From Mesorhizobium sp. L-2-11 (GTDB lineage Bacteria > Pseudomonadota > Alphaproteobacteria > Rhizobiales > Rhizobiaceae), in NCBI RefSeq assembly GCF_016756595.1, contig NZ_AP023260.1, positions 1-64,000 of the forward strand: a stretch of 64,000 nucleotides of DNA, written 5' to 3'. The notes below the pieces were generated by a model. That model saw only the letters and a list, made by a program, of their open reading frames with translations. It had not been told where the DNA came from and made no database searches. Both the position numbers and the translations under genes were made by a program. Numbering within the stretch: position 1 is the stretch's first letter; every line of letters begins with the position of its first letter. Of this stretch, positions 2,309-42,953 are shown in pieces.

Positions 2309-2505
2309 GTCCGCACCTCCGAAGCCAGTTCCAGGGCGATGGTCTCCGAGATTCCGCGACCGTCACGATCCAACCAACCCCACTCGCCAGTCGGGTTGAT
2401 TTCTATGAACCAGTATCGCCCTGCGGAGAGAGCCAAATCGATCGCAGCATATCTCAGCCCCAATATGCTCATCAGAGCCCGACAACGTCGTTCGATTGTA
2501 AGCGG

Positions 2506-4155: not shown

Positions 4156-4222
4156 CAGAGCACAAAAACAGCCGCTTTCCCAACCGTTCCAGCCGCATGA
4201 TTCATCTTGCCGCAGGCCGGTT

Positions 4223-25885: not shown

Positions 25886-25997
25886 CTAGGCGGTTCCCTG
25901 TGCGGCGCCCGGCTGCAGGGCGGTGAGATACTCAGCGACGACCTGCGCCTTGGCAGCGGCCGTGATGATGGCCCTCTTGTCATTCTTAAGTAAGCGG

Positions 25998-27647
25998 TCA
26001 GCCGATAACGTCAGGCCTAAAGTTCCAAGGCATGAGCATTTCGATTTCGGATGCCGGCCAGCCTTGAGCGATGCGGGTCAAGGTCTGCGAGAGCCAGTCG
26101 AGCGGATCGACGCTGTTCATTTTGCAGGTTTGCAGCAAGGTGGCTACCGTCGCCCAGGTTCGTCCACCGCCGTGGCTGCCGGCGAATAGACTATTCTTTC
26201 GCGTGATCGTCTGGGGCCTGATTGCACGCTCGACGATATTGGAGTCGATTTCGATGCGACCGTCCATCAGAAAGCGTTCCAGCGCCTCCCGCCGGGTGAG
26301 CGCGTAGCGGATCGCCTCGGCGGTCTTGGATTTTCCGGAGACCTTGCCCAGTTCCGCTTCCCATAGATCGAAGAGGCTCGCGACAATGGCCACGGACTTT
26401 TCCTGACGTAGCGCGGCGCGGCTTCCGGCATCCTTGCCGCGGACCTCGTCCTCGACCTTCCACAATTCGGTCATGGCGATGATCGAATCCGTCGCGGCCT
26501 GCGAGACCCCGCTGATGTGCAGGTCGTAGAATTTGCGCCGCAGGTGAGCCCAGCACCCGGCGAGCCGGATTGTTTCATTGCTGCCGGCTTTGGCCCGTGC
26601 CTTGACCAGGTTGGTATAGGCCGAGTAGCCATCCACTTGCAGGATACCGCTGAATCCGGCGAGGTGGCGCGCCACGCAATCCGCACCTCTGCTGTCTTCA
26701 AAACGATAGGCAACCATTGGCGGACTGGTTCCGCCATAGGGTCGGTCATCCCGTGCGTAGGCCCACAACCAGGCTTTCGTGGTTTTCCCGGAACCAGGGG
26801 CAAGGGTGGGCAAGGTCGTCTCGTCGGCGAAGACCCTTTCGCCCTCCTTGATGCGCTCCAGTATGTAATCAGCAAGCATCTGCAGCTCGAAGCCCAGATG
26901 CCCCATCCACTGCGCCATCAACGACCGGCTGATCTCGACGCCGTCGCGCAGATAGATCGCCTCCTGCCGATAAAGCGGGAGGCCGTCGGCGTATTTGGAG
27001 ACGGCGATATAGGCGAGCAGCCGCTCCGTCGGCAGCCCGCTTTCGATGATGTGCGCCGGCGCCAGAGCCTGGACCACGCCGTCACGGCCCCGGAAGGCGT
27101 ATTTGGGACGGCGCGTGACGATGACCTGGAACTTCGGCGGCACGACGTCCAGCCGCTCGGATCGATCCTCGCCGATCAGAACCTTTTCAAGCCCCTCGCA
27201 GTCGGCCGGGATTTCCGGCTCGACGACCTCCTCGATGCGTTCGAGGTGGGCAGCAAAGCCCTTGCGCGGACGCGGGGCGCGCTTCGGCTTGTTCCCGACC
27301 GCGCGGTCGAGTTCGCTCCGGATTTCCGAAAGGCCGGTCTCGACCTCTTCGAAGGCAAAGGAGGCCTGCTCGTCGTCGATGGCCAGGCGTAGCCGCTCGG
27401 AACGCGTGCCATGTTGCGTGCGCTGTAAAACTTTCAGGATTGACGTGAGATTGGCGATCCGCTCGCTGGCGCTTTTCTCGACAGCTTTCAGCCGGGCGAC
27501 CTCCGCCTCAGATGCTGCGATCCGAGCGTCGGCGACTGCGATCCGGGCCTCGCTTGCAGCCTGCTCGCGAGCCATGGAAAGGATCATCGCCTTCAGCGCA
27601 TCAACGTCGTCGGGAAGGGCAAGACCCGGTAGAACCATGGCAAGCAA
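25998..27647 (-). CDS. tnpC: IS66 transposase TnpC (copy B)
   Basis: This 549-residue protein is the same as the TnpC of copy A (2506-4155) over its whole length, including the coiled coil and the DDE-domain motifs VFADETTLP and LQVDGYSAYTNL. It is intact. Confidence 0.95.
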   Translation of the reverse strand: MLAMVLPGLALPDDVDALKAMILSMAREQAASEARIAVADARIAASEAEVARLKAVEKSASERIANLTSILKVLQRTQHGTRSERLRLAIDDEQASFAFEEVETGLSEIRSELDRAVGNKPKRAPRPRKGFAAHLERIEEVVEPEIPADCEGLEKVLIGEDRSERLDVVPPKFQVIVTRRPKYAFRGRDGVVQALAPAHIIESGLPTERLLAYIAVSKYADGLPLYRQEAIYLRDGVEISRSLMAQWMGHLGFELQMLADYILERIKEGERVFADETTLPTLAPGSGKTTKAWLWAYARDDRPYGGTSPPMVAYRFEDSRGADCVARHLAGFSGILQVDGYSAYTNLVKARAKAGSNETIRLAGCWAHLRRKFYDLHISGVSQAATDSIIAMTELWKVEDEVRGKDAGSRAALRQEKSVAIVASLFDLWEAELGKVSGKSKTAEAIRYALTRREALERFLMDGRIEIDSNIVERAIRPQTITRKNSLFAGSHGGGRTWATVATLLQTCKMNSVDPLDWLSQTLTRIAQGWPASEIEMLMPWNFRPDVIG

Positions 27648-27714
27648 CAGAGCACAAAAACAGCCGCTTTCCCAACCGTTCCAGCCGCATGATTCATCTT
27701 GCCGCAGGCCGGTT

Positions 27715-28059
27715 TCAGCCCGTCGATAACGGCCGCCTGACCCTGGCCGGACGAATCTTTTTCCAGTCCAGTCCGGCCAGAAGCGCCATCAACTGGGCGT
27801 GGTCGAGACGCATGCGCGCGGCCGATATCCCCGGCCAGCAGAAGCTGTGATCTTCCAGAGTCTTCGAATAAAGACAAACCCCGCTGCCGTCCCACCACAC
27901 GATGCGAACCCGGTCCGCACGCTTCGAACGGAATACGTGAAGTGCCCCCGAGAATGGGTCCAGGCCGCCATCCCTGACCAGCGCCATCAAAGATGCCGCG
28001 CCCTTGCGGAAGTCGACCGGCTGGCACGACACGTAAACCACCACACCGGAAGCGATCAT
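27715..28059 (-). CDS. tnpB: IS66 accessory protein TnpB (copy B)
   Basis: This 114-residue protein equals TnpB of copy A, with the VYVSCQPVDFRKG and RSKRADRVRIVWWDG motifs, and overlaps tnpA by 4 bp. Confidence 0.93.
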   Translation of the reverse strand: MIASGVVVYVSCQPVDFRKGAASLMALVRDGGLDPFSGALHVFRSKRADRVRIVWWDGSGVCLYSKTLEDHSFCWPGISAARMRLDHAQLMALLAGLDWKKIRPARVRRPLSTG

Positions 28060-28463
28060 GCCTTACGAACCGCGCGGATGATCCTCGCCAGGCGATCGGG
28101 ATCGACATCGCCGCCGGCGCGCACCACTGCGTCGCCAATGACGATTTCCACCGTGTCGCTGCCCACCGCTTCAAAGCGCGTGAACTTCGCCGGCTTGCTC
28201 GCTCCCTCCGTCAGTGGCGCAACCATGCCCGACGAAAGCGCCTTGCGGCGCCACGCATAGAGCTGCGAGGGGTCCAGCCCCTCGGAACGCGCAACCGCCG
28301 AGACATTGCCCCCTGGCGAGAACGCTTCGGCGACAAGCCGTGCCTTCTCTTCGTCCGACCGATGGCGCGGCTTGCGTCGGGACGGCACAGGCTCCGCCGT
28401 CAAAATCTCGAATGTTCGATGATGGCTCATACTGTCGCTCATAGGATTCTCCGCATGATTCAT
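28056..28463 (-). CDS. tnpA: IS66 accessory protein TnpA (copy B)
   Basis: This 135-residue protein equals TnpA of copy A, with its helix-turn-helix region including GLDPSQLYAWRRK. Confidence 0.92.
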   Translation of the reverse strand: MNHAENPMSDSMSHHRTFEILTAEPVPSRRKPRHRSDEEKARLVAEAFSPGGNVSAVARSEGLDPSQLYAWRRKALSSGMVAPLTEGASKPAKFTRFEAVGSDTVEIVIGDAVVRAGGDVDPDRLARIIRAVRKA

Positions 28464-28775
28464 GCTGAAAATGAGCGATCAACCGCCTGCACGCTACGTG
28501 GGGACGCCTACGCGCTTACATTCTTAAGGACAGCGAGCCAGTTCGCCAGATAGGCGGCTGTGTTGTCACGCGGATCATGCGCCACGCCCAGGTCGGCACA
28601 CAGGAACGATGCTGCGAGCTCGGCAACATATCCTGACAGTCAAGCCTGACGATCGTGGCTATCGCGGAATCGGAGTGTCAGGCCTCAGCGTTTTTGATCC
28701 TCGCGGGCTGGGCGGCAGCCAAGGTGAAAAAGGCCATGGCTACGCGTCGGTGGCGGCCCTAAGGCGACGTGGCGC

Positions 28776-29564
28776 TCAGCTCGGCGGCTGTTGCGCGTGC
28801 ATCCAGTCAGCGGCAGCCTGCGCTTTGCTTGCGGCGGTGAAGATCGCCCGCGCATCGTCCTTCAGCACTTTGAGCCAGGATGCCACATAGGCTGCGTGGT
28901 CAGGACGGGGATGATGCGCCAGGCCCAGATCGGCCAGGATATAGGCTGCAGCAAGTTCGGCGGTCAGTTCTTCGACTGCCAAGGCCTCGCGGGTGAAGCG
29001 TTTGGCGAAGTCTCGATCGAGCCGATGCTTAGAGCCTGTGGCATGCGCGGCCTCGTGGAGATAAGTCCCGACGTGAGCGACAGGATCGCGGAAGACATTG
29101 AAGTCCGGCAAAAAGATGTGGTCGAGATCGATGCGGTAGTATGCGGCATCGGCGCCAAAGGTAACGGGGATGCCGAGCGCACTGATGAAGGCATCGGCAT
29201 GCGGGATTCGTTCAGAGTCAGGCAGGATTGGAGCAGCGGAAGGCGTGAAGCCCTCGACCTGGGAGCTGTTGAAGACCGAGAAGGCGCGCGCGAAGAGACG
29301 TCGCTGGGGGTGCTCATCGTCGCCGACGGCATCATCGTCACCGTGGGCTGCAAATTCCTTCCAGAGCACGACGGTCGTTGCGCGTTCGCCCTTGCGGACC
29401 TGGGCGTCAAGCGCCTGCCATTGCCGGTATGTGCCCCAGGTGCCGCTTCCAAAGCCGTGAGCCTGAGCTGCGATCCAAAGAGCGAGCGTATTGACGCCGC
29501 GATAGGCCTTTCCGGAAGAGATGTTGGTTGGGCGAGCAATCGAGCTTCCATCGTGGTGCCAGGG
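28776..29564 (-). pseudogene. ardC: ardC-b, C-terminal ~90% (interrupted by element gin1)
   Basis: Reading starts at PWHHDGSSIARPTNISSGK and covers the ArdC N-domain (YRQWQALDAQVRKGERATTV), the zincin motif LHEAAHATGSKHRLDRD (HExxH) and the C-terminal HPRPDHAAYVASWLKVLKDD. The first 32 codons are missing here but lie at 42202-42297. CCAGGG (29559-29564) is repeated at 42202-42207. Removing 29565-42201 and one copy of the repeat restores a 292-residue ORF in frame. ArdC proteins protect incoming plasmid DNA from restriction; this copy cannot be made full-length while gin1 is present. Confidence 0.9.
29559..29564. repeat. gin1 insertion-site repeat, left copy (CCAGGG)
   Basis: This 6-bp sequence, coding for Pro-Trp of ardC-b on the minus strand, is repeated at 42202-42207 on the other side of element gin1. 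It is the likely crossover core. Confidence 0.8.
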
Positions 29565-29653
29565 ATAGATCGCGTCACTGAACTGTCCTGATAGTCTTGT
29601 ATGAGAGGGTAGCGCAGACGCCTTTGAGTGACCGTCAGCGTGCCTTCAGCGTT

Positions 29654-29714
29654 GCGCCGGGAGATCCGCGCAGGGCGGAGGCGTAGCCGAAGCCCGGAGC
29701 GGATTTCCCGGCGC
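29654..29714. repeat. Leader hairpin upstream of ginA1
   Basis: The arms GCGCCGGGAGATCCGC (29654-29669) and GCGGATTTCCCGGCGC (29699-29714) pair with one mismatch, 89 bp inside the element end and 31 bp before ginA1. A hairpin of unrelated sequence occupies the same place in gin2. Confidence 0.75.
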
Positions 29715-29745
29715 GGCGCCGATCCAGGCCTATTGGAGGCGTGAT

Positions 29746-30891
29746 ATGGTCGTGATCATTCGGGCTGCTCCTGGTTATCCGCCAATCCCGCCCGGCTTCC
29801 CCCTCCTCCTCTCCAATCAAATGACAATCGTGGAGCCTGCGTTCAGGTTCTTGCTCGAACAGGCGGAGTTGCGCGCGCATTCGCCGGAAACGATCCGTAC
29901 CTACGGCGAACATCTCTACGAATGGTTCGATACGCTCGAGCAATCGGAGCTGACTTGGGATCAGGTGAACGAGGGCACAATCCTCGGCTTTCGTAACCGT
30001 ATGCTGGAGGGAGTAAGTCCGCATACCGGTCGTCCATATGCACGCTCCACGATCAATGACCGCGTAGGATCAGTGTGCAGGTTTTATGCCTGGGCGCATC
30101 GCCGCAATCTGATCGAGGAACTGCCCTTCACGTTCAGGGATGCTCCCGCCGTGCGGAAAGGCCGCCAGGGCTTACTCGCGCACATTGCGGGGCGTCCCGG
30201 AGCGCAAAATGCGTTGATCGTAGCGGAATACGAAACACTTCCTCGTCCGTTGCGCGTCAGCGACCTGCACCGGCTGTTAGCCGCGCTCGACATGCCGTAC
30301 CGGTTGATCGCCGAGTGGGCGGTCACGACCGGCATGCGTCGCATGGAACTGTGTGCACTGACGGTGCGCCAGGTGCCGCGGAGTGACCGATTACACATGG
30401 ATGAGCATCCACTGGTCGGTGTCCCGCTGACAATTACCAAAGGCGGGCGGAAGCGCACCGTCTATCCGCCGCTCCGGCTAATCGATCGCTCCAACTGGTA
30501 CATCGGTGAAGATCGAGCAGCACTGATCAAGCATCTGTGCCGAAAATGTCCCGACTATAAGCCGCCGGACACCCTGTTCCTCAACCGACGAGGCGGTCCG
30601 ATCACGAAATCACGGTTGTCGGCCGCTCTTGCGCAGGGCTTCGGGGCGGCGGGGCTGGACGGGTCGGTGCACTGGCTGCGACACACGTTCGCCATGGTGA
30701 TGCTGGTCCGCCTTCAGGCCGCATCGCTGCGCGATCCGGAGATCAATCCGTTGAAGGTCCTCCAGGTGTTGCTGGGCCACGCCTCGGTTGAAACGACGGC
30801 CATTTATCTACGCTGCGTCGACATCCATGGGGACGAGGTCGCTGAGGCCATCGAGTATCTCTACGGTCAGGCGGTTGACGATGCGGGTTGA
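29746..30891 (+). CDS. ginA: Tyrosine recombinase GinA (element gin1)
   Basis: This 381-residue protein has a full tyrosine-recombinase catalytic set: Arg-I in TTGMRRMELCAL, Lys in ITKGGRKRTVYPP, HxxR in HWLRHTFAMVM, and His and Tyr in LLGHASVETTAIYLR. The N-terminal ~120 residues are the SAM-like core-binding domain. GGAGG lies 7 nt before the ATG. It resembles TnpA of Tn554-type transposons and GinA of GInt islands. It is first in a four-gene operon whose genes overlap or nearly abut. It should act with GinB, GinC and GinD to integrate and excise the element. Confidence 0.9.
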   Translation: MVVIIRAAPGYPPIPPGFPLLLSNQMTIVEPAFRFLLEQAELRAHSPETIRTYGEHLYEWFDTLEQSELTWDQVNEGTILGFRNRMLEGVSPHTGRPYARSTINDRVGSVCRFYAWAHRRNLIEELPFTFRDAPAVRKGRQGLLAHIAGRPGAQNALIVAEYETLPRPLRVSDLHRLLAALDMPYRLIAEWAVTTGMRRMELCALTVRQVPRSDRLHMDEHPLVGVPLTITKGGRKRTVYPPLRLIDRSNWYIGEDRAALIKHLCRKCPDYKPPDTLFLNRRGGPITKSRLSAALAQGFGAAGLDGSVHWLRHTFAMVMLVRLQAASLRDPEINPLKVLQVLLGHASVETTAIYLRCVDIHGDEVAEAIEYLYGQAVDDAG

Positions 30892-32647
30892 TCGCCGCCG
30901 CATCGACCGTCGGCTCGCGGACACTTATGAAGAGGTGCCTGCAATCGGATCCGGCGCCATCGTGCTGTTCCGGTATGCCAGCGGAGAAGCGACACAGAGC
31001 TTCGATCTTAGCGAGTTGGGGCTTTCCCGGCCGCTTGCCTCAGCCTACGCCGAGGCGTTCCGGCGTCATCACGCATCGGCGTCGCCGGGAACGCGCAAAC
31101 AATGCTGGATCGCCCTGAAGACCTTCGCGCGCTTCCTTGCAACGCATGATAGCGTCGTCGAGCTTCCCGATCTAACGACCGATCTGTTCGGCGGATACAT
31201 CCTATGGCTGGATGCCTTGCCGTCCCGATCGGAAAAACCATGTGCGCCGGGCCTGCGCTATAACCGTTATCAGCCGATCAAGGCGCTAACCGAGTGGATC
31301 GCGCGCCAATATCCGAAACAGTTGCCCGTTCGACCTTCCTTCCCGTTCAACCCGTTCCCTGGGCGACATGACGTCTCACCAAATCGGCATCGCCTGTCCG
31401 GGCCGCAGCTCAAAGCAATCCTGCGGGCCTGCTACGAAGAAATCGACGCGGCGTGGTCACTGTTCGAGGCGGGTAAGAGAGTTTTAGCGACGCCAGATGG
31501 CCACGAGGATCCAGACAGCCTTCCGCACACATTGCGTCTTATGAACACCTTTGGTGGCGGGGTCATGCCACCCAGGCGAGCCGTGCCCGATCATCTTGGG
31601 CGCAGGTTGCATCTATGCGGTGGTCACGATCAGCTTGAGAAACATCTCCATGCCACGTCGGACTGCCTCGCTGCATTCTACATCGCCCTGGTTATCCAAA
31701 CGGCCGGAAATGCCGATGCGCTGCGGCTGATCGATCGCGACTGTATCGAGCCGCACCCATTGGTGGAGCATCGCGTCACCATCGACTGGCGGAAGGGCCG
31801 CGCCGGTCACCGACTGAAACGGGCGCAGCGCCGCTCGTTCGATCGCCGACGCCCGTATGCGGCGCCGAATCTCATCGAGAAGCTGCTTGCGATGACCGCG
31901 CCGCTCGCAGCCCACGCGCCAGCCAGGGAAGGCGACCACCTGTTCCTCATGCGAAGCCCGTCGCACGGGATCGGCGTCATCCAGCGAACGACGCTGTACA
32001 CCGCTATCGCGCGGCTCGTAGGTCGCGCCAATGCGCGCGTCGATGCGTGGAACGCCGCGCATCCAGACCAGCCGCGTATCATGCTTCCTCCCTTCAATCC
32101 CATGATGTTCCGCGGCAGCGTCGCCATCGAGCACTATCGGGCGTCGGGCGGCGACGTCCGGGTCGCGCAAAATGTGCTCAACCACAGCGATGCCAGCCTG
32201 ACGGACCGGTATATTCGCAGCGATCAGGCGAGGAGAATCCAACACGAGACGATCGCGCGGCTGCAGGGTCTGATGCTGGCCTGGATCCAGTCAGTGCCCA
32301 CCGACCCCTCGCCGGCGGCGATCGAGAATGAGCCAGCGGAAGCGTTCGGCCATCGTTGCCTCAAGCCGTTCACAGAGCCAGACCGGCGGTGCCCCAGCTT
32401 CGGCGGCTGTCTTGCATGCCCCGGCCTGATCGTTCCGATAGACGCCGCGCATCTTGCCCGGGTGCTCTCGGCAATCGAGCAACTCCACAATGCGCGTGCA
32501 CAGGTCGATCCTCGACGATGGGCGATGCTATACAAGCCGAGCCATGATCTGCTGGTCAGCGAGATCTTGCCCGACTTCCCGGCAGAACTTCATGTGCCGG
32601 CGCGCGCGATGATGGCGGGACTGCCGCCGTTACCGGCGCTGGAGTGA
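30881..32647 (+). CDS. ginB: Large tyrosine recombinase GinB (element gin1)
   Basis: This 588-residue protein has an ATG that overlaps the end of ginA1 by 11 bp. The C-terminal recombinase domain keeps a Lys hairpin (RKGRAGHRLKRAQRRSF), an Arg-II region MFRGSVAIEHY, and His/Tyr in VLNHSDASLTDRYI. The usual Arg-I motif is replaced by TAGNADALRLIDRDC, so it may be catalytically impaired or rely on partners. A conserved Cys group near the C terminus (CPSFGGCLACPG) may bind zinc. It is similar to Tn554 TnpB in size. It works with the other Gin recombinases. Confidence 0.86.
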   Translation: MRVDRRRIDRRLADTYEEVPAIGSGAIVLFRYASGEATQSFDLSELGLSRPLASAYAEAFRRHHASASPGTRKQCWIALKTFARFLATHDSVVELPDLTTDLFGGYILWLDALPSRSEKPCAPGLRYNRYQPIKALTEWIARQYPKQLPVRPSFPFNPFPGRHDVSPNRHRLSGPQLKAILRACYEEIDAAWSLFEAGKRVLATPDGHEDPDSLPHTLRLMNTFGGGVMPPRRAVPDHLGRRLHLCGGHDQLEKHLHATSDCLAAFYIALVIQTAGNADALRLIDRDCIEPHPLVEHRVTIDWRKGRAGHRLKRAQRRSFDRRRPYAAPNLIEKLLAMTAPLAAHAPAREGDHLFLMRSPSHGIGVIQRTTLYTAIARLVGRANARVDAWNAAHPDQPRIMLPPFNPMMFRGSVAIEHYRASGGDVRVAQNVLNHSDASLTDRYIRSDQARRIQHETIARLQGLMLAWIQSVPTDPSPAAIENEPAEAFGHRCLKPFTEPDRRCPSFGGCLACPGLIVPIDAAHLARVLSAIEQLHNARAQVDPRRWAMLYKPSHDLLVSEILPDFPAELHVPARAMMAGLPPLPALE

Positions 32648-32648
32648 T

Positions 32649-34512
32649 ATGATGACCAGCGTCGCGACCGTCTCTCTGGTTCCGGGGAAGTCCGGAATGA
32701 TGGTCTCATCGACTTCGCAGTGGGACGACGATATCTGGCGCTTCGACATATCGACGCCGGGCGTTACTGACTGTGCGCGCACGATCTCCTGGTCGTTCGA
32801 CCTGCCGGACGGCACACGGTTCTCAGATCCCGCCTGGGCGGCTCTTAGGGAAACCGTCAAACGCTTCCTGTGGTCGTTGCGGATCGACCCCCCGGCGGGC
32901 AAGCGCCGTCTCGCGCCGGGTTCACTGATCAGCGTGTTTACCCAGGTCCGCGTCCTGGTCTGCTGGATGGCGGGAGAAGGCCTAACGCGCTTCGCCAAGT
33001 TCGATGCGAACGCCGCGGCCGGGTTCTTGGACGCACTGAAGGCGCGTCCGGGTCGCCGCGACCAGAAGCTGTCTGTCGGAACGCGTGCTGGATATCTGGT
33101 GACGATCGGGCGGCTCTATGCCCAGCGGGAGAAGCTCGAGGACCGGGTGCCGGACGATCTGGTCCACTTCTTGGACGAGCATCGCCCACGCAATCGCCGG
33201 ATCGATCGTGCGCAACGGGTGCTTCCATACACGCCGGACGCAGTCGCCACAGCGCTGATCGGCGGCGCGCTGCGGTTGATCGGCAAGCCCGCCGAAGAGG
33301 TGCTCGCGCTGCGCGACCTTGCGGCGAAGGCTTATCGCGAGAGGAGACTGTCTGCCCGGCCAATCCCAGCAAGGGAAGCAGCGCCGTCGGTTGGGCTCGT
33401 TCGCGTTCTCCATACTGGAGGGAGAGAATGCGCCCTGGCACCGGCCGATCTACGGGTTCAATGAGATCAACGCTCTGATAGGGCGCATCTACGACGCTTG
33501 CTTCGTCGTGATCGCCTGGCTGGTTGGCGCTCGCGTGTCGGAGATACTTGGGCTCGAGGTGGGATGTATCGAACACCATCGCAGTCCCGATGGCGGAGAG
33601 ATCAGCTATCTGCATGGGCGCGTATACAAGATGGCGACCGGAGATGGTGGTCGCCCTCATCGCTGGATAGCCCCGGAGCCCGTAGTCCGCGCCATCGAAA
33701 TACTCGAACGATTATCGGCGCCGGTCCGCAAGCAGGTGGGAAGCAACCGCCTGTGGTTGCTGACGCGCGATCCGATCCTGCTCCAGCAGCCAAGCGGCAT
33801 TCCGAACACCGGCAGCGTCGCGATGCGCTTGAACGGGGCGTTCCGCGATCTGGTCAACCTGCCCCTGCACAAAGGCAAACCCTGGCGCCTCAATACCCAT
33901 CAGGGCCGCAAGACGTTCGCCCGGTTCATCGGCAAGCGCGACCGGACCGGGCTGCACGCCCTTCAGGAACATCTGGGCCATATCAGCCGCATCATGACCG
34001 ACCACGCCTATGTGGGGACTGACTTCGAACTCGCCGAACTGATCGGCGAGGAGACGATGAAGGAAACCCGAGCGGCGCTCGAGGATCTCCTAACCGCCAG
34101 AGCGCTCGCTGGGCATGCGGGGCGCATGATCGTTCAGCGATCGCGGTTCCGGGGGCGCACAAGGGACGGCGAGCTTCGTGACTATGTGGACTTCATCCTT
34201 CGCGACTCCGGCATGGTGCTTGGTGTATGCGACTGGGGTTACTGCCTGTATCGGCGCGAATACTCGGCGTGCCATGGTGATGATCATGGCCCAAACGAAC
34301 TATGGCGCAGCCAGAGTGTCTGCGTGAACTGCGCCAACTTCGCGGTGAGCCAGCGGCATCGACCCGTCTGGGAAGATCGACGGCGTCGCAATGCCGCGCT
34401 GCTGGAGCACCCCGACTTGGACGGGGAAAGCCGGGAACTCGCTGAGCAACGAATAATCGAATGCGACGCGATCCTGAGCGAAATGGATGGAGACCTCCGC
34501 GGTGACGGCTGA
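32649..34512 (+). pseudogene. ginC: Large tyrosine recombinase GinC (element gin1), frameshifted
   Basis: Two overlapping frames (32649-33464 and 33319-34512) align end to end with the intact ginC genes of gin2 and gin3. The total span is one nucleotide over a whole number of codons; removing one base near 33340-33360 gives ~620 residues. The 3' frame keeps Arg-I (GARVSEILGLEVG), THQGRKTFARF, LGHISRIMTDHAY and the C-terminal Cys motif CDWGYCLY...CVNCANF. It is probably inactive unless recoding or a sequencing error is involved. The start lies 1 nt after the ginB1 stop. Confidence 0.82.
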
Positions 34513-34966: not shown

Positions 34967-35263
34967 TCAAGCGGCCTGCTCATGCCGACTGGGTTGCTGC
35001 GCGTGCATCCAATCGGCCGCTTGTTGCGCCCAACTCGCGGCCGTGAAGATGGCGCGGGAATCGTCCTTCAACACCTTTATCCACGACGCAACATAGGCCG
35101 CATGATCGGGGCGCGGATGGTGGGCGATCCCGAGATCGACAAGGACAAACCCGCTGAGAATCTCGACGCAGCATTCCTCCGCAGCATAGGCGGCCGAACC
35201 GAACCGGCCCGAGAGATCGCGGTCAAGCCGGTGCTTCGACCCCGAGGCGTGGCCGGTCTCGTG
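34967..35263 (-). pseudogene. ardC: ardC-c, C-terminal third (interrupted by gin2)
   Basis: It reads HETGHASGSKHRLDRDLSG, then HPRPDHAAYVASWIKVLKDD, ending HEQAA. It begins exactly at the His-Glu codons of the HExxH zinc motif; a TAA triplet and non-ardC sequence precede it. The N-terminal 202 codons lie at 41534-42139. Removing gin2 plus one CTCGTG copy yields an uninterrupted 298-residue protein. The gene converges on ginD1, the same layout as ginD2/ardC-d. Confidence 0.9.
35258..35263. repeat. gin2 insertion-site repeat, left copy (CTCGTG)
   Basis: This 6-bp core (CACGAG on the coding strand, the His-Glu codons) is repeated at 41534-41539 on the other side of gin2. Confidence 0.85.
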
Positions 35264-35343
35264 TTAGGTCACATCTCCATGGCGTCCTTTCTGTCATCTC
35301 CCTGATGGGGAATCAGGACAGTTTCTACGTATGAGACGCTGCT

Positions 35344-35393
35344 CCGCCTTTCGCGGGGAGCGGGCCCGAGGGCCTGCTCCCCGCGAAAGGCGG
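35344..35393. repeat. Leader hairpin upstream of ginA2
   Basis: Perfect 18-bp arms CCGCCTTTCGCGGGGAGC (35344-35361) and GCTCCCCGCGAAAGGCGG (35376-35393) enclose an inner GGCCC/GGGCC stem. It lies ~80 bp from the element end and ~20 bp before the proposed ginA2 start. It matches the position, but not the sequence, of the gin1 hairpin. Confidence 0.88.
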
Positions 35394-35414
35394 GTCGCCC
35401 GAATTGGAGAGCCT

Positions 35415-36557
35415 TTGGCCGAGCTATTGTTCACTTCCGATGAGTTTGCACCGAACGGTATGTCAGTCCCTGGCGTGCCGATGCTCCTCGACCGAGAGAT
35501 GCGTCTGGTCGAACCGGCTTGTGCCTGGTTGCTGCACATTGCGCTCGTAAGAGGACGAACACGCAGCCGGCAGACATGGCGCACTTATGGTGAAGCCCTT
35601 TACGACTGGTGGCAGACCCTCGAAGCGAATGAGTGGATATGGGATGAGGTCGGCGTCGCGGAAATCGCTGCGTACCGAGATCGGATGCTCTTTCGACCCA
35701 GCGATCACACCGGACGGGCCTATGCCCGCAGCACCGTCAATGGTCGCCTCAGAACATTGGCTTTGTTCTATCGATGGTGTGTTGCTGCGGGTCTCACTGA
35801 TACTGCACCGTTCAACACGAGCGAACTTGCGCTGTCGCGACGTCAGCCGCAGGGATTCCTCACTCATGTTGATGCCACCGGCGGGCGACAGCTCGCCAAT
35901 GAACTGACTATCCGGCAAACCTCGGCGCTGCCAAAACCGCTGTCGCCGGTCGCGTTGCGACGCGTGATGGCTGGCCTGGGGTCTCGCGACCGTTTGATAA
36001 TCGAATGGGCTGTCACAACCGGCATGCGCCGGATGGAGGTAGCCGGATTGAGACTGCGGTCACTTCCACGATCCAGTCTGGATGCTCTGGTCGTCGTCAG
36101 AATCGAAGCCACGAAAGGGGGCAAAACGCGGACGGTTTATCCGCCATTGTCCCTGATCGATCGCACGCTCGCCTATGCGCGCGAAGAGCGAGCGGTCATC
36201 GTTCGACGAGCCAAATTGCGGCACGCCGACTACGCGGAACCAGATGCTGTCTTCCTGACGGAAGCCGGTCGCGGAATCAGTGCTCGCCGTGTCGGTGCAA
36301 TGTTCGCCGCCGCGGCCGGGACAGCAGGTGTGACGGCAAGCTTCCATGCGCTGCGACATACCTTTGCGACAGCGATGCTCCGGTTCTTGCAACGGCGGGC
36401 GCAAGACGAGCCGGAGCTCAATCCACTTCTCACCCTCCAGGTGGTGTTAGGACATGCCGATCTTTCTACGACGGCAATCTATCTGCGCGTGCTGGCGACA
36501 GATCTGACACTGGTGGAATCCTCTGTCGACGAACTTTACGGGGCTCTTCTACAATGA
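35415..36557 (+). CDS. ginA: Tyrosine recombinase GinA (element gin2)
   Basis: The catalytic residues are complete: TTGMRRMEVAGL, ATKGGKTRTVYPP, HALRHTFATAM and VLGHADLSTTAIYLR. I place the start at TTG 35415 (GGAG just upstream), giving 380 residues, against 381 for GinA1. A longer ORF from ATG 35331 would translate through the leader hairpin and is unlikely. The stop overlaps ginB2 (ATGA). It is the first recombinase of the gin2 integration module. Confidence 0.88.
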   Translation: MAELLFTSDEFAPNGMSVPGVPMLLDREMRLVEPACAWLLHIALVRGRTRSRQTWRTYGEALYDWWQTLEANEWIWDEVGVAEIAAYRDRMLFRPSDHTGRAYARSTVNGRLRTLALFYRWCVAAGLTDTAPFNTSELALSRRQPQGFLTHVDATGGRQLANELTIRQTSALPKPLSPVALRRVMAGLGSRDRLIIEWAVTTGMRRMEVAGLRLRSLPRSSLDALVVVRIEATKGGKTRTVYPPLSLIDRTLAYAREERAVIVRRAKLRHADYAEPDAVFLTEAGRGISARRVGAMFAAAAGTAGVTASFHALRHTFATAMLRFLQRRAQDEPELNPLLTLQVVLGHADLSTTAIYLRVLATDLTLVESSVDELYGALLQ

Positions 36558-38341
36558 AGCGGCAACGCAAAGATTATCGGCTCGATCCATCGCCTATACC
36601 GCTCGCTGGCGAGCCTACTTCGCTGGTGGTCAACTTCCTTGATCCCAACGGTCGACTGGAAAAAAGCTTCGACTTCTCGATCTATGGAATGACACCAAGA
36701 GTCGCTGCCGAAATCGCGCTTGCCTTCCGCAACCACCATGCCGGTCACAGTCCGGCCACGCGCGAGGGAGCGTTCCATGCGCTTCGCCGTTGGTTTGTGT
36801 TCCTTGGTGAGCAAAATCCCGCCATCACATCGATGCGGGATGTCGATACAACAACGCTACGAGCTTTTATTGCGTGGCTCGATACCAAACCGTGGACCAA
36901 GAGTTCTCGCCATGGCACCTGGTCCGTGCTCAAACAGATGGTTCGCTGGCTGAAGCGCAATCGGCCTGAGCTCGTCGCCACCGATCTGGAAATCCCGTTC
37001 AACGCCTTTCCTCGCAAGAATGCAGAGACGCGTCCCCGCGAGGCGCTGAGCCGGTCTGAGATGGAAGCGATCCTCTCCGCGGCTCGCAAAGACATAGAAG
37101 CAATCTGGTCGACCTTCCAGGCTGGGAAAACCCTGCTCTCCCAGGTCGACCGCGAGGCTATCGCGCGGGAACGGGATCTCAGTCGGCTCGACCTTGATGA
37201 TCTCGGTGTGATGCTCGCTGTCATCGTCGAGCATTACGGCGGGTTGGTTCCTCCCCAGAACGTGACGCTGGAGCGCGGTGCTGGTCGATGGCGGCTTCAC
37301 TTCGCCTCGCTTAAGCATGGCGGGAACCAGAAGCTCGCGAGCTATCTTCACACCCTGCCCGAAACGCTGATTCCATACATGATCGCCATCGGGGCGCAGA
37401 GCTACGCGAACCCCGAGGCCCTCCGAGAACTTCGACGGGACTGCATGAGCGATCATCTGCTTTTAGATGGCCGGGAAGTCATGACGTGGTCGAAGGGCCG
37501 CTCAAACCGAGTGCAGCGGCGAAGCTTCCTGCGTGACAAAAGTTTGTCGGTGCCTCACCTCATCGATCAGGTAGTGGAAATGACGGCGTTATTGATGCCC
37601 CATGTTCCGGCGCATGATCGCGAGCGGCTCTTTCTGGTCGCGAGCATAAACGGCACGCGTGCGATCAAGCTGATCCCCGACTACTTGATGAGTAAGCACG
37701 TCAGATTGTTCGCCCAACGTCACGGCCTTGTTGACGAAAAAGGCGCGCCGCTCGCGCTCACCCTGGCCGCGCTGCGAACTACGGGGCTCACTCTCGCGCA
37801 TGAAACGCTCGGGCACGATATCCTGAAGACCCAGATCCTCGCCAATCACGCCACGCCGGATACAACGCAGCGCTATATCGATCGGCCGATCGTGCGAAAG
37901 GCCCAGGAGCGCATTATCGGTGATCTGCAATTACGCTTCGTCGAAGCCATTCGCAGCCCCCACGATGAGGCTGATGACGAACGTGATGCCGACGTAGCGA
38001 CAGTCCAGGCCGAATATGCCACGGCTGCCGGCTTCATCTGCAAGGATCCACTCGCGGGCGTCGGGGAAGGCCAGAAAACTGGCCGTCTATGCACGGCCTG
38101 GCTGGGCTGCTTCACCTGCCCGAACGCGGTGATTCCTCTCGATCCTGGTGTTCTAATCCGGTTGCTGTCGACGCGAGATGCCCTTGTCGCGGCACGTCAA
38201 GCGCTGGCTCCGGACCGCTGGCGGCTCCTCTACGCGCCGAAACTGGAAATCCTCGAGCACGACATCCTGCCGCGCTTCTCGCCGGAGCTTCACTTGGCCG
38301 CGTCCATGGAAGCGGCACCAGCTCTGCCGGTGATCGAATGA
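36554..38341 (+). CDS. ginB: Large tyrosine recombinase GinB (element gin2)
   Basis: This 595-residue protein starts at the ATG overlapping the ginA2 stop. Recombinase-domain features are WSKGRSNRVQRRSF, AALRTTGLTLAHETLG, LANHATPDTTQRYID with the Tyr, and a C-terminal Cys group CTAWLGCFTCPNAVIP. As in GinB1 the Arg-I motif is not recognisable (QSYANPEALRELRRDC). The longer in-frame ORF from 36005 overlaps ginA2 and is a shadow. Its stop overlaps the ginC2 start. Confidence 0.86.
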   Translation: MKRQRKDYRLDPSPIPLAGEPTSLVVNFLDPNGRLEKSFDFSIYGMTPRVAAEIALAFRNHHAGHSPATREGAFHALRRWFVFLGEQNPAITSMRDVDTTTLRAFIAWLDTKPWTKSSRHGTWSVLKQMVRWLKRNRPELVATDLEIPFNAFPRKNAETRPREALSRSEMEAILSAARKDIEAIWSTFQAGKTLLSQVDREAIARERDLSRLDLDDLGVMLAVIVEHYGGLVPPQNVTLERGAGRWRLHFASLKHGGNQKLASYLHTLPETLIPYMIAIGAQSYANPEALRELRRDCMSDHLLLDGREVMTWSKGRSNRVQRRSFLRDKSLSVPHLIDQVVEMTALLMPHVPAHDRERLFLVASINGTRAIKLIPDYLMSKHVRLFAQRHGLVDEKGAPLALTLAALRTTGLTLAHETLGHDILKTQILANHATPDTTQRYIDRPIVRKAQERIIGDLQLRFVEAIRSPHDEADDERDADVATVQAEYATAAGFICKDPLAGVGEGQKTGRLCTAWLGCFTCPNAVIPLDPGVLIRLLSTRDALVAARQALAPDRWRLLYAPKLEILEHDILPRFSPELHLAASMEAAPALPVIE

Positions 38342-40158
38342 AGGCGCGACGTGCTCGAAAACCTGTTCTCGCCGAGTGGTCCGAAGCACCGCTCTCGCAA
38401 TGGAGCCGGTTCGGCGATGATGAATGGTTGCTCGACATCCGGACCGCCGGCCGGCGCGCCGACCAGAACAAAATGAGCTGGACGATCGCCTTGCCGGAGG
38501 GAGCTGTCATCAGTGAAGACGCGTGGCGTGCTCTCCATGAAACCGCGAAGCAGTTCTTATGGTCGATGACCGTGAATCCACCAGCCGGTCGCAAGCGGCT
38601 GTCACCAACGTCGGTGCATGGCAAAGCCATCACCCTGAAAACCATGATCCGGTGGATGGTGCTCGACGGACTGGAGACGTTCAGCAGCATTGATGCCGCG
38701 GCCGTGGAGCGGCTGCGAGCCTGGCTGCTGACACGAGTGGGATACCGGGGAAAGCCCATCACGGCGAACACCATCGTCAACTACATGGTGGTGCTGAAGG
38801 ATCTCTATCGACAGCGAACCAAGCTTGATGATGCCCCGTTGATCGATCCTCTGCCGCAGGAGACGACCTATGAGGCGGCAGGCCTGACGCCCGCGACGCG
38901 CGGTGCGATCCCGTTCATTCCCGATGCCATTGCGATCTCCTTGCTGAATACCGCTCTGCAATGGGTGGAGGACCATGGTCCAACGATCGTGAAAGCAGAG
39001 ACGATCCGACGCGAGGCACGGGCGTTCGGACTGACCCAAGGGGCAAAAAGGCAAGCTTCCTACCATGTACGCAAGGCATTGCGGCGTGCCGATCTGAAAG
39101 GCCCTGCGGGCGAAGCACTGTCCGGCGCGTATGCGGTCCGCCACGCTGCCACGCATCTCGCGGAGGCCTGCTATATCATCATTGCCGGCTTCGTCGGCAT
39201 GCGCGTGAGCGAAATCCTCTCGACCGAGGTCGGTGCCATCGAGTTCCACCCCATCGGGGATACCGGCGTCGATCAAGCCTACATTGTCGCGCGGTTGTTC
39301 AAGACCGTCGACCAGCATGGCGGACGACTGGAGCGCTGGATTGCTCCTGACCCCGTGGTGAAGGCGGTCAGCCTACTTGAGCAGCTGAGTGCACCGTTGC
39401 GTAAAGCGTCCGGAAGGCGAGAACTCTTCCTCGTCAAAAATACCCAGTACGGCGAGATCGTCCCGGTCACCCAGATGCATATCGGCTGGCGGATCAACGA
39501 TTTTGCCCGACATGTTGGCGTGCCCATGCACGAGGGAAAGCCTTGGGCATTCAGCAGCCACCAGTTCCGCAAGACGTTTGCGCGCTTTATCGCGCGAAAG
39601 GACCGGTCGCAACTTCTTGGCCTTGCGGGGCATTACAAACACGCATCGGTCGCGATGACCGCGCGTGGTTATGTCGGCAGCGACTTCGATCTCCGGCAAC
39701 TCGTCGATCATGAAAACCGGGCGGAAACAGCCACGGCATTGGAACGAATGCTGGTCAGCGATCGACTTGCCGGGCGCATGGGCGAGCGCATTGTCGCGGG
39801 CAACGCCCGGTTCCGGGGACGCGCCGGCGAGCAGGTCCGTCAGGATTACATCGAGTTTGTCCTCGCCGAAACGGACCTGCGCATCCACGCCTGCGATTAC
39901 GGCTGGTGTGTGTTCCAGCAGGAGACCAGTCGTTGTGGAGGTGAAATAGCACCCAGCGAGGCCGGCCGGAGTCCATCTGTCTGCCTGGGCTGCGCGAACA
40001 TGGTGATCGAGCCGCAGCATGCGCCTTATTGGCAGGACCGTCGGACGAGGAACCAGGTGTTGCTCCCTGCCGCCAACGAAATGACGGTCGCGGTTCTCAC
40101 CGAGGCAATCGAACAATGCGACAATGTCCTGATCAGGATCGGAGAACATGATGGATGA
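38338..40158 (+). CDS. ginC: Large tyrosine recombinase GinC (element gin2)
   Basis: This 606-residue protein has a start that overlaps the ginB2 stop (ATGA). Catalytic motifs are GMRVSEILSTEVG with Arg-I, SSHQFRKTFARFIAR with Arg-II, LAGHYKHASVAMTARGYVG with His and Tyr. The C-terminal Cys-rich module CDYGWCVFQQ...CLGCANMVIEPQH resembles a zinc finger and is shared by all three GinC proteins here. Longer upstream ORF sequence is a ginB2 shadow. Intact. Confidence 0.87.
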   Translation: MKARRARKPVLAEWSEAPLSQWSRFGDDEWLLDIRTAGRRADQNKMSWTIALPEGAVISEDAWRALHETAKQFLWSMTVNPPAGRKRLSPTSVHGKAITLKTMIRWMVLDGLETFSSIDAAAVERLRAWLLTRVGYRGKPITANTIVNYMVVLKDLYRQRTKLDDAPLIDPLPQETTYEAAGLTPATRGAIPFIPDAIAISLLNTALQWVEDHGPTIVKAETIRREARAFGLTQGAKRQASYHVRKALRRADLKGPAGEALSGAYAVRHAATHLAEACYIIIAGFVGMRVSEILSTEVGAIEFHPIGDTGVDQAYIVARLFKTVDQHGGRLERWIAPDPVVKAVSLLEQLSAPLRKASGRRELFLVKNTQYGEIVPVTQMHIGWRINDFARHVGVPMHEGKPWAFSSHQFRKTFARFIARKDRSQLLGLAGHYKHASVAMTARGYVGSDFDLRQLVDHENRAETATALERMLVSDRLAGRMGERIVAGNARFRGRAGEQVRQDYIEFVLAETDLRIHACDYGWCVFQQETSRCGGEIAPSEAGRSPSVCLGCANMVIEPQHAPYWQDRRTRNQVLLPAANEMTVAVLTEAIEQCDNVLIRIGEHDG

Positions 40159-40597
40159 CCCACGCTCGCCTTCCGCCTTGTCTGCGGCGCGCGCTTATCG
40201 TGCGGCGCTGGCTCGACTGGTTCGTGGCGAGGGCCGCCATCCGGATCATCAGGGGCGCATCGTGAGGATCAGTCCCGCTTCGGTCGCGCGTGAAGCGGGG
40301 AAAAGCCGAAATCCGCTCTACACGACACATCGCGACATCCTCGATGAGATCGAGGCCGCCGTACAGGCACCAGGTCCTTCCAAAGACCTCGCGGCCCGGG
40401 TGACGGAAATGGAGGTTGAGATTGCACAGCTCCGTTCCGAAGCCCGCCGGCACAGCGAAGAAAAGCGGAAGCTGGCGAGCGAAAATCTAGCACTCCTTCA
40501 CCGGGCGAGGACGGCGGAGGACAAACTGGCATCCTCGCAGCGGCGGGCGCCATTGGCGCCTGCCGCTGCGTTGCCTGTCAGGCCGCTACCGCGCTGA
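40148..40597 (+). CDS. ginD: GinD, small HTH/coiled-coil accessory protein (element gin2)
   Basis: The 149-residue protein overlaps ginC2 by 11 bp. The helix-turn-helix region ISPASVAREAGKSRNPLYTT is followed by a coiled coil (LAARVTEMEVEIAQLRSEAR). It is the fourth gene of the gin operon and its 3' end overlaps the convergent ardC-d by 20 bp. It probably binds DNA as an accessory factor. Confidence 0.83.
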   Translation: MMDDPRSPSALSAARAYRAALARLVRGEGRHPDHQGRIVRISPASVAREAGKSRNPLYTTHRDILDEIEAAVQAPGPSKDLAARVTEMEVEIAQLRSEARRHSEEKRKLASENLALLHRARTAEDKLASSQRRAPLAPAAALPVRPLPR

Positions 40598-41474
40598 TCT
40601 GCTGGCAGGGCTGTTGCGCATGCATCCAGTCGACAGCGGCCTGAGCCTTGCTTGAGGCCGTGAAGATGGCGGAGGTATCGGCGCGAAGGACCTTCAACCA
40701 ACTGGAGATATAGGCGGCGTGATCCGGCCTTGGCCGTGCCGATATCGATAGATCGGCGAGAACCATGGCTGCTCCAGCGTCAGCAATTATCTCCTCCATG
40801 GCATAGGCTTCGGAGCCGAACCGTCCGGATAGATCGCGGTCGAGTCTGTGTTTTACTCCTGACGCGTGAAGACCTTCATGGAAAAGCACGCTGTAATGAG
40901 ACGCGACGTCGCGGAATGAGCTGAAAACTGGCATATGCACCCGATCAGCCGAAGGCAAATAGTAGGCTTCGTTGCCTCCATATACGGTGCTGATCCCAAG
41001 GTTCGCATAGAAAGCATCAGCGTGTGCGATACGTTCTTCTTCCGAGCGGGCAACCGCCGGTTCTGGCTCATAACCATCGACCTGGGCGCAGTTGAACACC
41101 GAATAGCCGCGGGCGAATAGACGCCGACGCTCACCATCATTGGAATCATCATCCTCATAAGTCTTGCCGCCGATCTGCCCCCAGAAGACGACGGTTGTGG
41201 ATCTCTCACCTTTGCGCACCTGGGCACCAAGGGCCTGCCATTGGCGATACGTTCCCCAGAGGCCGGCAGGATATCCAGCGCTATGCGCCGCGACCCACAA
41301 GGCAAGTGTGTTCACGCCACGGTAGGCCTTGCCGGATGCAATATTGGTCGGCCGGGCAGTGGCTGTTCCATCATGATGCCAGGGCATCACATACTCGCCA
41401 GCACCGGCTTCGATGGCAGCGATAATCTCTTCAGTGATGCGGGCATAAACATCTGCTCGGTTCAGAGAAGCCAT
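40578..41474 (-). CDS. ardC: ardC-d, intact ArdC-type antirestriction protein
   Basis: This 298-residue protein starts MASLNRADVYARITEEI, with GGGAGG upstream. The N-terminal ssDNA-binding ArdC domain has YVMPWHHDGTATARPTNIAS and YRQWQALGAQVRKGERSTTV. The zincin motif is LFHEGLHASGVKHRLDRDL (HExxH), and the C-terminal part is RPRPDHAAYISSWLKVLRAD. ArdC proteins protect plasmid DNA on entry by blocking restriction. It is the cargo gene of gin2. Its His-Glu codons are CATGAA rather than the CACGAG used as a target in ardC-a and ardC-c, while its Pro-Trp codons keep CCCTGG. Confidence 0.92.
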   Translation of the reverse strand: MASLNRADVYARITEEIIAAIEAGAGEYVMPWHHDGTATARPTNIASGKAYRGVNTLALWVAAHSAGYPAGLWGTYRQWQALGAQVRKGERSTTVVFWGQIGGKTYEDDDSNDGERRRLFARGYSVFNCAQVDGYEPEPAVARSEEERIAHADAFYANLGISTVYGGNEAYYLPSADRVHMPVFSSFRDVASHYSVLFHEGLHASGVKHRLDRDLSGRFGSEAYAMEEIIADAGAAMVLADLSISARPRPDHAAYISSWLKVLRADTSAIFTASSKAQAAVDWMHAQQPCQQISAVAA

Positions 41475-41533
41475 CGTCATGCCCTCCCTGCTGCAGGTGC
41501 TGAAGCAAGAAGGACACTTGCGATGAAACCTAA

Positions 41534-41539
41534 CTCGTG
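41534..41539. repeat. gin2 insertion-site repeat, right copy (CTCGTG)
   Basis: This is the second copy of the 6-bp core present at 35258-35263. Excision between them would restore ardC-c in frame. Confidence 0.85.
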
Positions 41540-42139
41540 CAACCACACCCCATAGAACGATGCGGCATCGCGGAAGGAAACGAAGTCCGGCATGAACACC
41601 GTATCGGAAGACGGAAGATAGTAAGCATCCGATCCGCCGAAGACGGTCTTGATGCCGAGATTGGTGATGAACGCCTCCGCGTGTGCGAGACGCTCGTTCT
41701 CCGGCAGCGTGTCCGTCGGCGGACGCTCGTATCCGTCTACCTGAGCGACGTTGAACACCGAAAATGCCCGGGCGAACATCCGGCGCCGGCCACCTTCCTC
41801 ATCGTCGTCATCGTCATCAGCCGGCTCGGAGGAAGCGATCTGCTTCCACAGAACGACGGTGGTCGAACGCTCGGCCTTGCGGACCTGCGCGCCGGCGGCC
41901 TGCCATTGCCTGTAGGTTCCCCACAGACCGTCGCCATAACCGGCGGCCACGGCTGCTACCCAAAGCGCCACCGTATTTATGCCGCGGTAGCGCCTGCCAG
42001 AGGATATATTGGTTGGCCGTGCAGCGCCCGTGCCGTTGTGGAACCACGGCGCGTGCCATTCGCCTGCACCTTGCTCGATGGCCGCGATGATCTCCGCCGT
42101 GACGCGGGTGTACACGTCTGCCCGATCTTGATCCGCCAT
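41534..42139 (-). pseudogene. ardC: ardC-c, N-terminal two thirds (interrupted by gin2)
   Basis: It begins MADQDRADVYTRVTAEI with GGGAGG 8 nt upstream and continues for 202 codons to FYGVWLHE, stopping at the His-Glu of the zinc motif. The ORF then runs on into the gin2 terminus (LGFIASVLL) for a few codons. Together with 34967-35257 it forms a complete ArdC. The truncated protein lacks the second zinc-binding His and the C-terminal domain. Confidence 0.9.
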
Positions 42140-42201
42140 GATCAGGCCCTCCCTGCGCAGGAGGTGTCAGCGCTCAAGAATACATTTGCAAAATGACCTA
42201 A

Positions 42202-42207
42202 CCAGGG
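42202..42207. repeat. gin1 insertion-site repeat, right copy (CCAGGG)
   Basis: This is the second copy of the 6-bp core at 29559-29564. Confidence 0.8.
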
Positions 42208-42297
42208 CATGACATACTCACCGGCGCCGGCTTCGATAGCCGCAACAATCTCGGCTGTTATGCGGGCGTAAACGTCCGCGCGATCGAGAGAAGCCAT
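42202..42297 (-). pseudogene. ardC: ardC-b, first 32 codons (interrupted by gin1)
   Basis: It reads MASLDRADVYARITAEIVAA to YVMPW and stops at the CCCTGG (Pro-Trp) codons where gin1 begins. A ribosome-binding GGGAGG precedes it. The remainder is at 28776-29558. Confidence 0.88.
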
Positions 42298-42356
42298 GGT
42301 CAGGCCCTCCCAGCGACAGGCATCGCGGCAAGGAGGACACTTGCGATGAAACCTAA

Positions 42357-42953
42357 CTCGTGCAGCAAAGTCGAGTAAAGGTGAACCTCGCTGTCGAAAC
42401 GCCCGCGGTCCGGCATAAGGATGTCGTCGATGCTGGGCCGGTAGCAAGCTTTGGTGCCACCGTAGTTGACGCTTGCGCCGGTGTTCTGGACGAAGCTCTC
42501 GACGGTCTCGATGTGCGGAACCGGATTGCCCGGCAACTCCTCGACCGGGCTGAAGAACCTGTTCGGCATGTTCTCGATCTGCTCAATATTGAAGACGGGG
42601 TAGCCCTTCAGATACGGAATCTCGCGGTCTTCGTCGCCTTCGTGATCCTTCGGAGTGAACGTGCCGTACTTGACGACAAGGGTTCCTTTTTCGCCCTTGC
42701 GGACCTGACCGCCGAAGTCCTGGGCCTGCCGGTAGGTCATCCAGGTGTTTTCCTCGTAGCCGAACGTCTGGCCCGCGACCCACAGCATGATGACGTTGAT
42801 TCCGCGGTAGGCTTCGCCGGTAGCGCGCCGCGGAATGATCGCGCTGCGGCGGGCATTGCCGCGCCAGGGGCGGATCCACGGCTTGGTACCGGCTCCAAGC
42901 TGCTCGACAATGGTGTCCGTGATGCGCTGGTAGGTGTCCTTGATGCTCTGCAT
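42357..42953 (-). pseudogene. ardC: ardC-a, N-terminal half (interrupted at the zinc motif)
   Basis: It starts MQSIKDTYQRITDTIVEQLG, with GGAGA 6 nt upstream, and runs 199 codons to YSTLLHE, ending at CACGAG. Beyond this point the sequence is the terminus TTAGGTTTCATCGCAAG of an outer gin-like shell. It belongs to a different ArdC subtype from copies b, c and d and is probably the plasmid's original gene. The C-terminal remnant is at 25886-28630. Confidence 0.87.

Follow-up and report, generated by a model that had tools for sequence, protein, structure and literature searches.

GInts have been described as elements with a four-gene ginABCD operon at one end, in which a small fourth gene accompanies three recombinase-type ones, and with short imperfect repeats that contain a 6-nt core; cargo lies behind ginD, and several copies per genome are possible (main text of PMC5385486). 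The available text of PMC10214605 marks the movement of GInts as not tested, and it describes for another group, the strand-biased circularizing integrative elements (SEs), a footprint in which the native 6 bp are retained at one end while 6 bp derived from the donor lie at the other. According to PMC7213743, the antirestriction protein ArdC aids conjugative plasmids in withstanding restriction when they enter a new host. Here, we analyse a locus in which ginABCD modules and ardC genes are interlocked, in the first 64,000 nucleotides (hereafter, the window) of contig NZ_AP023260.1 of Mesorhizobium sp. L-2-11. The window is part of contig C4 (171,753 bp) of a 7.4 Mb genome in 5 contigs. It contains, as the initial annotation had claimed, four ardC genes (ardC-a to ardC-d) and two ginABCD modules, those of the elements gin1 and gin2.

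We consider it probable that gin2 is a 6.3-kb GInt-type element that sits in four ardC genes at their His-Glu codons, that likely copies itself, and whose own ardC is predicted to be translated by reinitiation behind the truncated target. In the window, gin2 occupies 35264..41533 (forward strand), exactly as first annotated, and is flanked on each side by the 6-bp core CTCGTG (35258..35263 and 41534..41539), which contains His-Glu codons on the minus strand. It comprises, on the forward strand, ginA (35331..36557), ginB (36554..38341), ginC (38338..40158), and ginD (40148..40597), together with an intact ardC-d on the minus strand (40578..41480). GinA has a phage integrase domain above the Pfam cut-off, GinB and GinC have weak integrase SAM-like matches below it, and GinD has no family match; ArdC-d has an ArdcN and a zincin-like metallopeptidase domain, both above the cut-off. 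Three recombinase-type proteins followed by a small fourth are the GInt order, and the site-specific insertion, the imperfect direct repeats, and the 6-nt core are GInt traits as well. The cargo ardC comes after ginD; the last 60 bp have 53% GC against 60% for the whole element, and no AT-rich end of 0.2–0.4 kb was defined. Judged from its gene order and site features, gin2 is of the GInt kind, and its ardC address, ardC cargo, and adaptor (see below) would make it a variant.

The GinA of gin2 is found in this genome three times whole and once in two pieces. Two copies (L009 and L012) show 0 differences from the gin2 of the window over 6,270 bp, and the other (L010), which is interrupted by an insertion sequence (IS), shows 0 differences over 432 bp to the left and 5,843 bp to the right of this IS, its mismatches being confined to the flanking ardC. 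The four copies lie in four different ardC genes, each cut at CTCGTG (CAC GAG on the coding strand, the His-Glu of the HExxH motif), with the synonymous variant CTCATG on the ginA side of L009. In the ArdC of R388, the corresponding pair is H201-E202, and the metal is bound by H201, H205, and E229 (as described in PMC7213743). Beside one chromosomal copy lie genes for an MmeI-type methyltransferase, a helicase, and a T5orf172 protein (L079, 7096–14249), possibly a restriction cluster.

Relatives of gin2 were sought in other genomes. A search with GinB gave matches in 10 of 146 genomes of the genus, 8 of 394 of the family, and 2 of 397 of the order (the counts include the genome's own, and the family and order searches scored the top three candidates per genome). 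A pattern for the right end occurred at 14 places in 7 of the 146 genus genomes, and the reversed control pattern at none. Identical copies recur: in genome G075, four gin2-type copies show no difference over 6,253 bp, and the elements on a plasmid of M. loti NZP2037 (L017) and in another genome (L020) have 0 differences over 6,269 bp. When each insertion is counted once, 18 right ends could be located, namely the window's gin2 and its outer element, L009, L010, L012, L017, L018, L020, L021, L022, L023, L024, L025, L026, and L067, and the sphingomonad plasmids L060, L061, and L062. All except one lie at the His-Glu codons of an ardC, in Mesorhizobium-like and sphingomonad DNA, from two bacterial orders. 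Both halves of the target could be read in 13 of these 17, ten of which were compared together (of the others, L060 and L062 were read whole and L061 in pieces). The N-halves of the ten share 34–93% identity with one another, while elements within one genome are identical. Since CAYGAR occurs 117 times on both strands of the 64 kb, chance does not explain why 17 of 18 ends fall at a single codon pair in members of one gene family, even when the relatedness of some targets is taken into account. The initial annotation suggested looking in other genomes for split ardC halves around ginABCD, and such loci do recur; that ginABCD elements carry ardC and insert into ardC is a real, recurrent phenomenon. 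The sphingomonad element L062 (pCAR3), also in an ardC, has arsenic-resistance genes besides ardC as its cargo. The longest contigs of three ardC-d homologues (P0015–P0017) have 6301–6329 bases, about one element, as expected if repeat copies collapsed in assembly.

The footprint of movement can be read at L024, where GAGATG lies on the ginA side and CTCGTG on the other. The target gene is unbroken in G047 (L069) and G011 (L070); in both, the flanks abut exactly, and GAGATG is in place in L069. This comparison indicates that the ginA side keeps the 6 bp of the host, the other 6 bp being foreign. The foreign CTCGTG recurs as the left core of two further copies in that genome, L022 and L023; similarly, the right core of L023, CTCATG, is the left core of L025 (both in G075), and the right core of L017, TTCATG, is the left core of L020, whose element is identical. 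Judged from one copy set against two empty sites, with other copies in agreement, gin2-type elements follow the SE rule, with the native 6 bp at the ginA end and the donor's 6 bp opposite. To judge from such sequence relationships, gin2 likely spreads by copying itself; the elements show no transfer genes of their own.

The right end has a second property. In 20 of 21 right ends (those of the window's gin2, gin1, and outer element, plus 18 relatives), the frame of the target stays open past the core for 17, 18, 19, or 36 codons, and the stop then overlaps the first ATG of the carried ardC or lies two bases before it. In gin2, this adaptor (41478..41533, minus strand) has 18 codons, followed by the stop TGA of the truncated N-half of ardC-c, which overlaps the first ATG of ardC-d. 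The same adaptor is used on targets other than ardC: the target of L019 reads ...KVPG, then LGHFATVFLSADTSCAGRA and a stop. The adaptor would serve the reinitiation of the carried ardC.

Movement could proceed as published for the SEs, with circular copies that bring the donor's left 6 bp along. After insertion, the carried ardC would be transcribed from the target gene and translated by reinitiation, and the carried ArdC would stand in for the disrupted one. Plasmids commonly have an ardC, so a preference for the most conserved codons of this gene probably keeps the elements on travelling DNA.

The second element, gin1, strikes elsewhere. It lies at 29565..42195 (forward strand) with gin2 inside it, between two CCAGGG cores (29559..29564 and 42196..42201) that contain Pro-Trp codons on the minus strand; the end first placed at 42201 includes the right 6-bp copy, so the element stands but is shorter by these bases. 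Its ginABCD module is at 29746..34966 (forward strand), with ginC in two frames (about 32649–34512). The claim that gin2 splits an ardC belonging to gin1 was borne out. The N-half of ardC-c (41534..42139, minus strand) and its C-half (34967..35263, minus strand) both match the intact ardC of the gin1-type relatives L038, L033, and L019, with 92, 90, and 89% identity for the N-half and 94, 90, and 90% for the C-half, and removing gin2 with one 6-bp copy gives an ardC-c of 298 residues in frame. Two of five gin1-type loci, the window and L016 (left side only), are at the Pro-Trp codons of an ardC; L032 is the plasmid of L019 again and was not counted. The gene struck in L019, L033, and L038 was first taken for a DUF932 gene, an assignment that we dropped, since its N-half has no Pfam match.

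A third lineage, gin4, is found on contig C2 (L011), where three recombinase-like genes, with Pfam seeing an integrase in the first only, lead into an intact ardC that has both ArdC domains above the cut-off. A tblastn search for a relative of ginD beside this element found none. The element sits in an ardC at the Val-Ala of EELVA, which, by analogy with R388, would be two residues behind the third metal ligand, and pLA1 of Novosphingobium has a relative at the corresponding position. In a tree of ArdC N-domains, 15 carried ArdCs (of gin1, gin2, gin4, and sphingomonad elements) are separated by a 100/99 branch from 16 target or intact ones. The carried genes are seldom the targets of gin2-type elements: of the 17 insertions at ardC, that of the window's gin2 alone was found in a carried ardC, 15 of the remaining targets group with non-carried ArdCs in the tree, and L067 was left out of it. 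Outside ardC-c, none of the targets in the set of ten is more than 49% identical to a member of the 120 closest ArdC-d homologues. The idea of a self-propagating landing pad is not supported in the form first given: gin2 does use gin1's ardC as its target, but this is one case among 17 insertions.

Since gin1 and gin4 strike other conserved spots of ArdC (Pro-Trp and Val-Ala), an ardC carried by one lineage can be a target for another, which accounts for the nest of gin2 in gin1; genes brought by elements can likely be struck in turn, and this would explain nesting. A broader picture, which we put forward tentatively as possible rather than probable, is that ArdC is a shared currency of self-copying recombinase elements. 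Three lineages would use the codon pairs Pro-Trp, His-Glu, and Val-Ala, each would bring an ardC from one cargo lineage that is open to insertion by the others, and gin1 and gin2 would have adaptors; through repeated insertions and fusions, plasmids would acquire stacked and shuffled antirestriction operons, and 6-bp scars would record the ancestry of the copies.

Several observations weigh against these interpretations. L024 lies in a gene other than ardC, as do L019, L033, and L038 (at ...KVPG), so with three of five gin1-type loci and one of the four gin2-type copies in G075 outside ardC, the notion of ardC as the exclusive target has to be given up. A number of targets are closely related to one another (up to 93%), and the 17 insertions are, therefore, not 17 independent events. 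A further gin2-like element (L063, GinA 61.5%) has ends that were not located. In L018 (pMLa), the adaptor is frameshifted, with the reading frame continuing through the start of the carried ardC, so that target and carried ardC would be fused. As for the footprint, the right core of L025, TTCATG, has no donor in its genome, and both cores of gin2 in the window are CTCGTG, which makes the footprint unreadable there. When the ginC of gin1 is aligned with intact relatives, it falls into two frames; gin1 may, therefore, be unable to move by itself. The tree, with 31 chosen rows and about 208 columns, came with a warning of long branches meeting. Finally, self-immunity through an altered core in the element's own ardC is kept as an idea only. 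The own-ardC cores are CATGAA followed by GGN in 6 of 6 gin2 lineages, CCGTGG or CCTTGG in 4 of 4 gin1 ones, and ACCGCC in gin4, but CATGAA is also a core at real insertions, and HEGLH and PWFH are not rare (27 and 41 of the best 120 of 6564 ArdC homologues), which weakens the idea.

Some of these observations fit another explanation, in which elements simply target short sequences within conserved genes of plasmids, the ardC cargo and the ardC target are functionally unlinked, and the adaptor only prevents fused proteins. It would accommodate the gin1-type relatives that use the same adaptor in a non-ardC gene, L024 in its own non-ardC gene, and the arsenic genes that pCAR3 carries besides ardC. 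It does not sit well with 17 of 18 gin2-type right ends at one ardC codon pair in two bacterial orders, nor with three gin families that each have an ardC and are all found in ardC. We regard this explanation as doubtful, though it deserves to be taken seriously beside a functional link between cargo and target.

The history of ardC-b is more intricate than was first thought. The removal of gin1 does restore a frame, of 292 residues with one copy of Pro-Trp (294 with both kept), but this frame is a chimera of two ardC sources and no single gene; of the two restored frames, that of ardC-c aligns with intact relatives and that of ardC-b does not do so as a whole. To the left of gin1, positions 28615–29564 match the ardC of gin4 (contig C2) with 99.8% identity, against only 68% (over 320 bp) for the pMLa element; they contain the downstream part of ardC-b (28776..29564, minus strand), derived from gin4's ardC, and the 3' end of a gin4 element (28615..28775, minus strand). 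To the right, positions 42202–42362 have 98% identity to the right end of the pMLa gin2-type element, with the first 75 bp having only 79% to gin4's ardC; they contain the first 32 codons of ardC-b (42202..42297, minus strand), derived from a pMLa-type relative of gin2. By these identities, the two flanks of gin1 stem from two different ardC genes or elements. The two sources change over within about 9 bp of the site of gin1, a closeness that speaks more for an exchange between two gin1 copies or at gin1 sites than for a later arrival of gin1 at the switch point by chance. Recombination between elements would then likely have swapped flanks and fused ardC genes into the chimeric ardC-b.

One could also imagine an ordinary crossing-over between two carried ardC genes, with gin1 inserted afterwards. 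In a doubly struck ardC, such as those of C2 and pLA1 (see below), the carried ardC genes are direct repeats, and loss of the DNA between such repeats would produce the fusion seen here; the switch, however, coincides to about 9 bp with gin1's site in a gene of about 880 bp, and we consider this sequence of events unlikely. On pMLa itself (L018/L066), the frameshifted adaptor puts the truncated target and the carried ardC into one reading frame, which amounts to a natural ArdC-ArdC fusion.

The outermost gene, ardC-a, had been interpreted as split by the right end of a single outer shell. The right end (42356/42357) does split ardC-a, at His-Glu, but two elements are involved: a lost gin2-type element, of which the right end and adaptor remain (42298..42356, minus strand), and a gin4 element, the end of which (28615) is at Val-Ala. 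The N-terminal part of ardC-a, through His-Glu (42357..42953, minus strand), has 97.5% identity to an intact homologue on an Aminobacter plasmid, and the far C-terminal part matches one and the same intact gene with 100% over 36 residues. Beyond the Val-Ala site, ardC-a continues (28526..28614, minus strand) up to an IS (25984..28525, minus strand, three open reading frames), after which comes the last part of the gene with the stop codon (25886..25983, minus strand). About 29 residues between the two sites are gone, together with most of both elements, and their place is taken by the ardC of gin4 as far as Pro-Trp, by gin1 together with the gin2 that it contains, and by the 32 codons of the pMLa-type carried ardC.

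An ardC struck by both a gin2-type element (His-Glu) and gin4 (Val-Ala) is found in three places: clean in pLA1, mosaic in C2, and collapsed in the window. In pLA1, both C-terminal pieces match the unbroken gene of pF2 and pCAR3. In C2, the N-half of the target shares 87% identity with its counterpart in L025, which the far C-terminal piece matches at 59 of 67 residues, whereas the inner piece of 33 residues between the elements matches the type of L010 at 32 of 33 residues and that of L025 at 14 of 33, which means that the inner piece came from another ardC.

A plain set of Russian dolls without any exchange, in which ardC-a contains a single outer element, the ardC-b of that element contains gin1, and the ardC-c of gin1 contains gin2, would agree with the clean insertion of gin2 into gin1's ardC-c and with the in-frame join of ardC-b, but is very improbable given the different origins of gin1's flanks (gin4's ardC on the left, a pMLa-type gin2 end on the right), the gin4 end at another codon of ardC-a (28615), and the 29 residues missing between the sites. 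Equally remote is the explanation of mosaic flanks and multiple copies by assembly errors across identical 6.3-kb repeats: exact repeats of such a size can be mis-joined, and our judgement is based on the assembly alone, but the outermost ardC pieces in the window and in C2 come in each case from one gene on one contig, a layout that a single wrong join would not give, the finished plasmid pLA1 has the same double insertion, and the copies in G075 and of the NZP2037 type have different 6-bp cores at each site.

The IS at 25984–28525, like its near-identical copies, is presumably of the IS66 type, to judge from its three open reading frames; the near-identical one in the window is at 2498–5038, and another copy is that which interrupts gin2 at L010. 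The window also contains a second, partial GinB-like frame (51827–52753, minus strand; 37% identity, 309 codons). A further family, gin3, has two copies, at about 88.6–98.4k of C2 and 32.0–41.9k of C3 (L030 and L031), with 93.7% identity over 9.8 kb, and no ardC was found beside either; gin3 and others (L027–L031, L036, L037, and L039–L043) are GInt-like elements without ardC.

For an element addressed to the catalytic codons of ardC, with an ardC as its cargo, spreading would be coupled to the transfer of plasmids, and antirestriction genes could be renewed along the way. The identical multi-copy elements, which differ in their 6-bp scars, provide natural genealogies, and, at 6.3 kb, the element is small enough for testing the movement of GInts. 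Insertion at a conserved codon pair can, moreover, swap the halves of a gene in frame. Searches of open-licence PMC papers (subscription journals are mostly outside this scope) listed no report of GInts in ardC; the initial annotation had likewise named no precedent for ardC-targeted nesting.

With the GInts described in the main text of PMC5385486, gin2 shares the operon layout, the site-specificity, the 6-nt core, and the cargo behind ginD. It differs in its target, which is the active-site codons of ardC rather than an ABC transporter gene, ssb, or a nucleotide reductase gene, and in its cargo, which is one ardC rather than 2.5–70 kb; unlike the GInts described there, gin2-type elements have up to four identical copies per genome and a right end that is an in-frame adaptor. 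In that main text, “ardC”, “antirestriction”, and “Mesorhizobium” have 0 occurrences, as has “ardc” in the available text of PMC10214605. The SEs of the latter publication have the same 6-bp footprint, and a copying movement has been proposed for them; their likeness to gin2 is one of movement mode alone, SE and GInt proteins being separated by sequence in the available text. The Tn554 family (PMC10214605) resembles gin2 as a group of tyrosine-recombinase transposons with a target preference and a 6-bp footprint, but, going by its description there, it is set apart from GInts by having three proteins and no counterpart of GinC. The recombinase in trio (RIT) elements, as described in the same text, share with gin4 the three recombinase-like genes in a row; unlike them, gin4 carries an ardC and sits in one.

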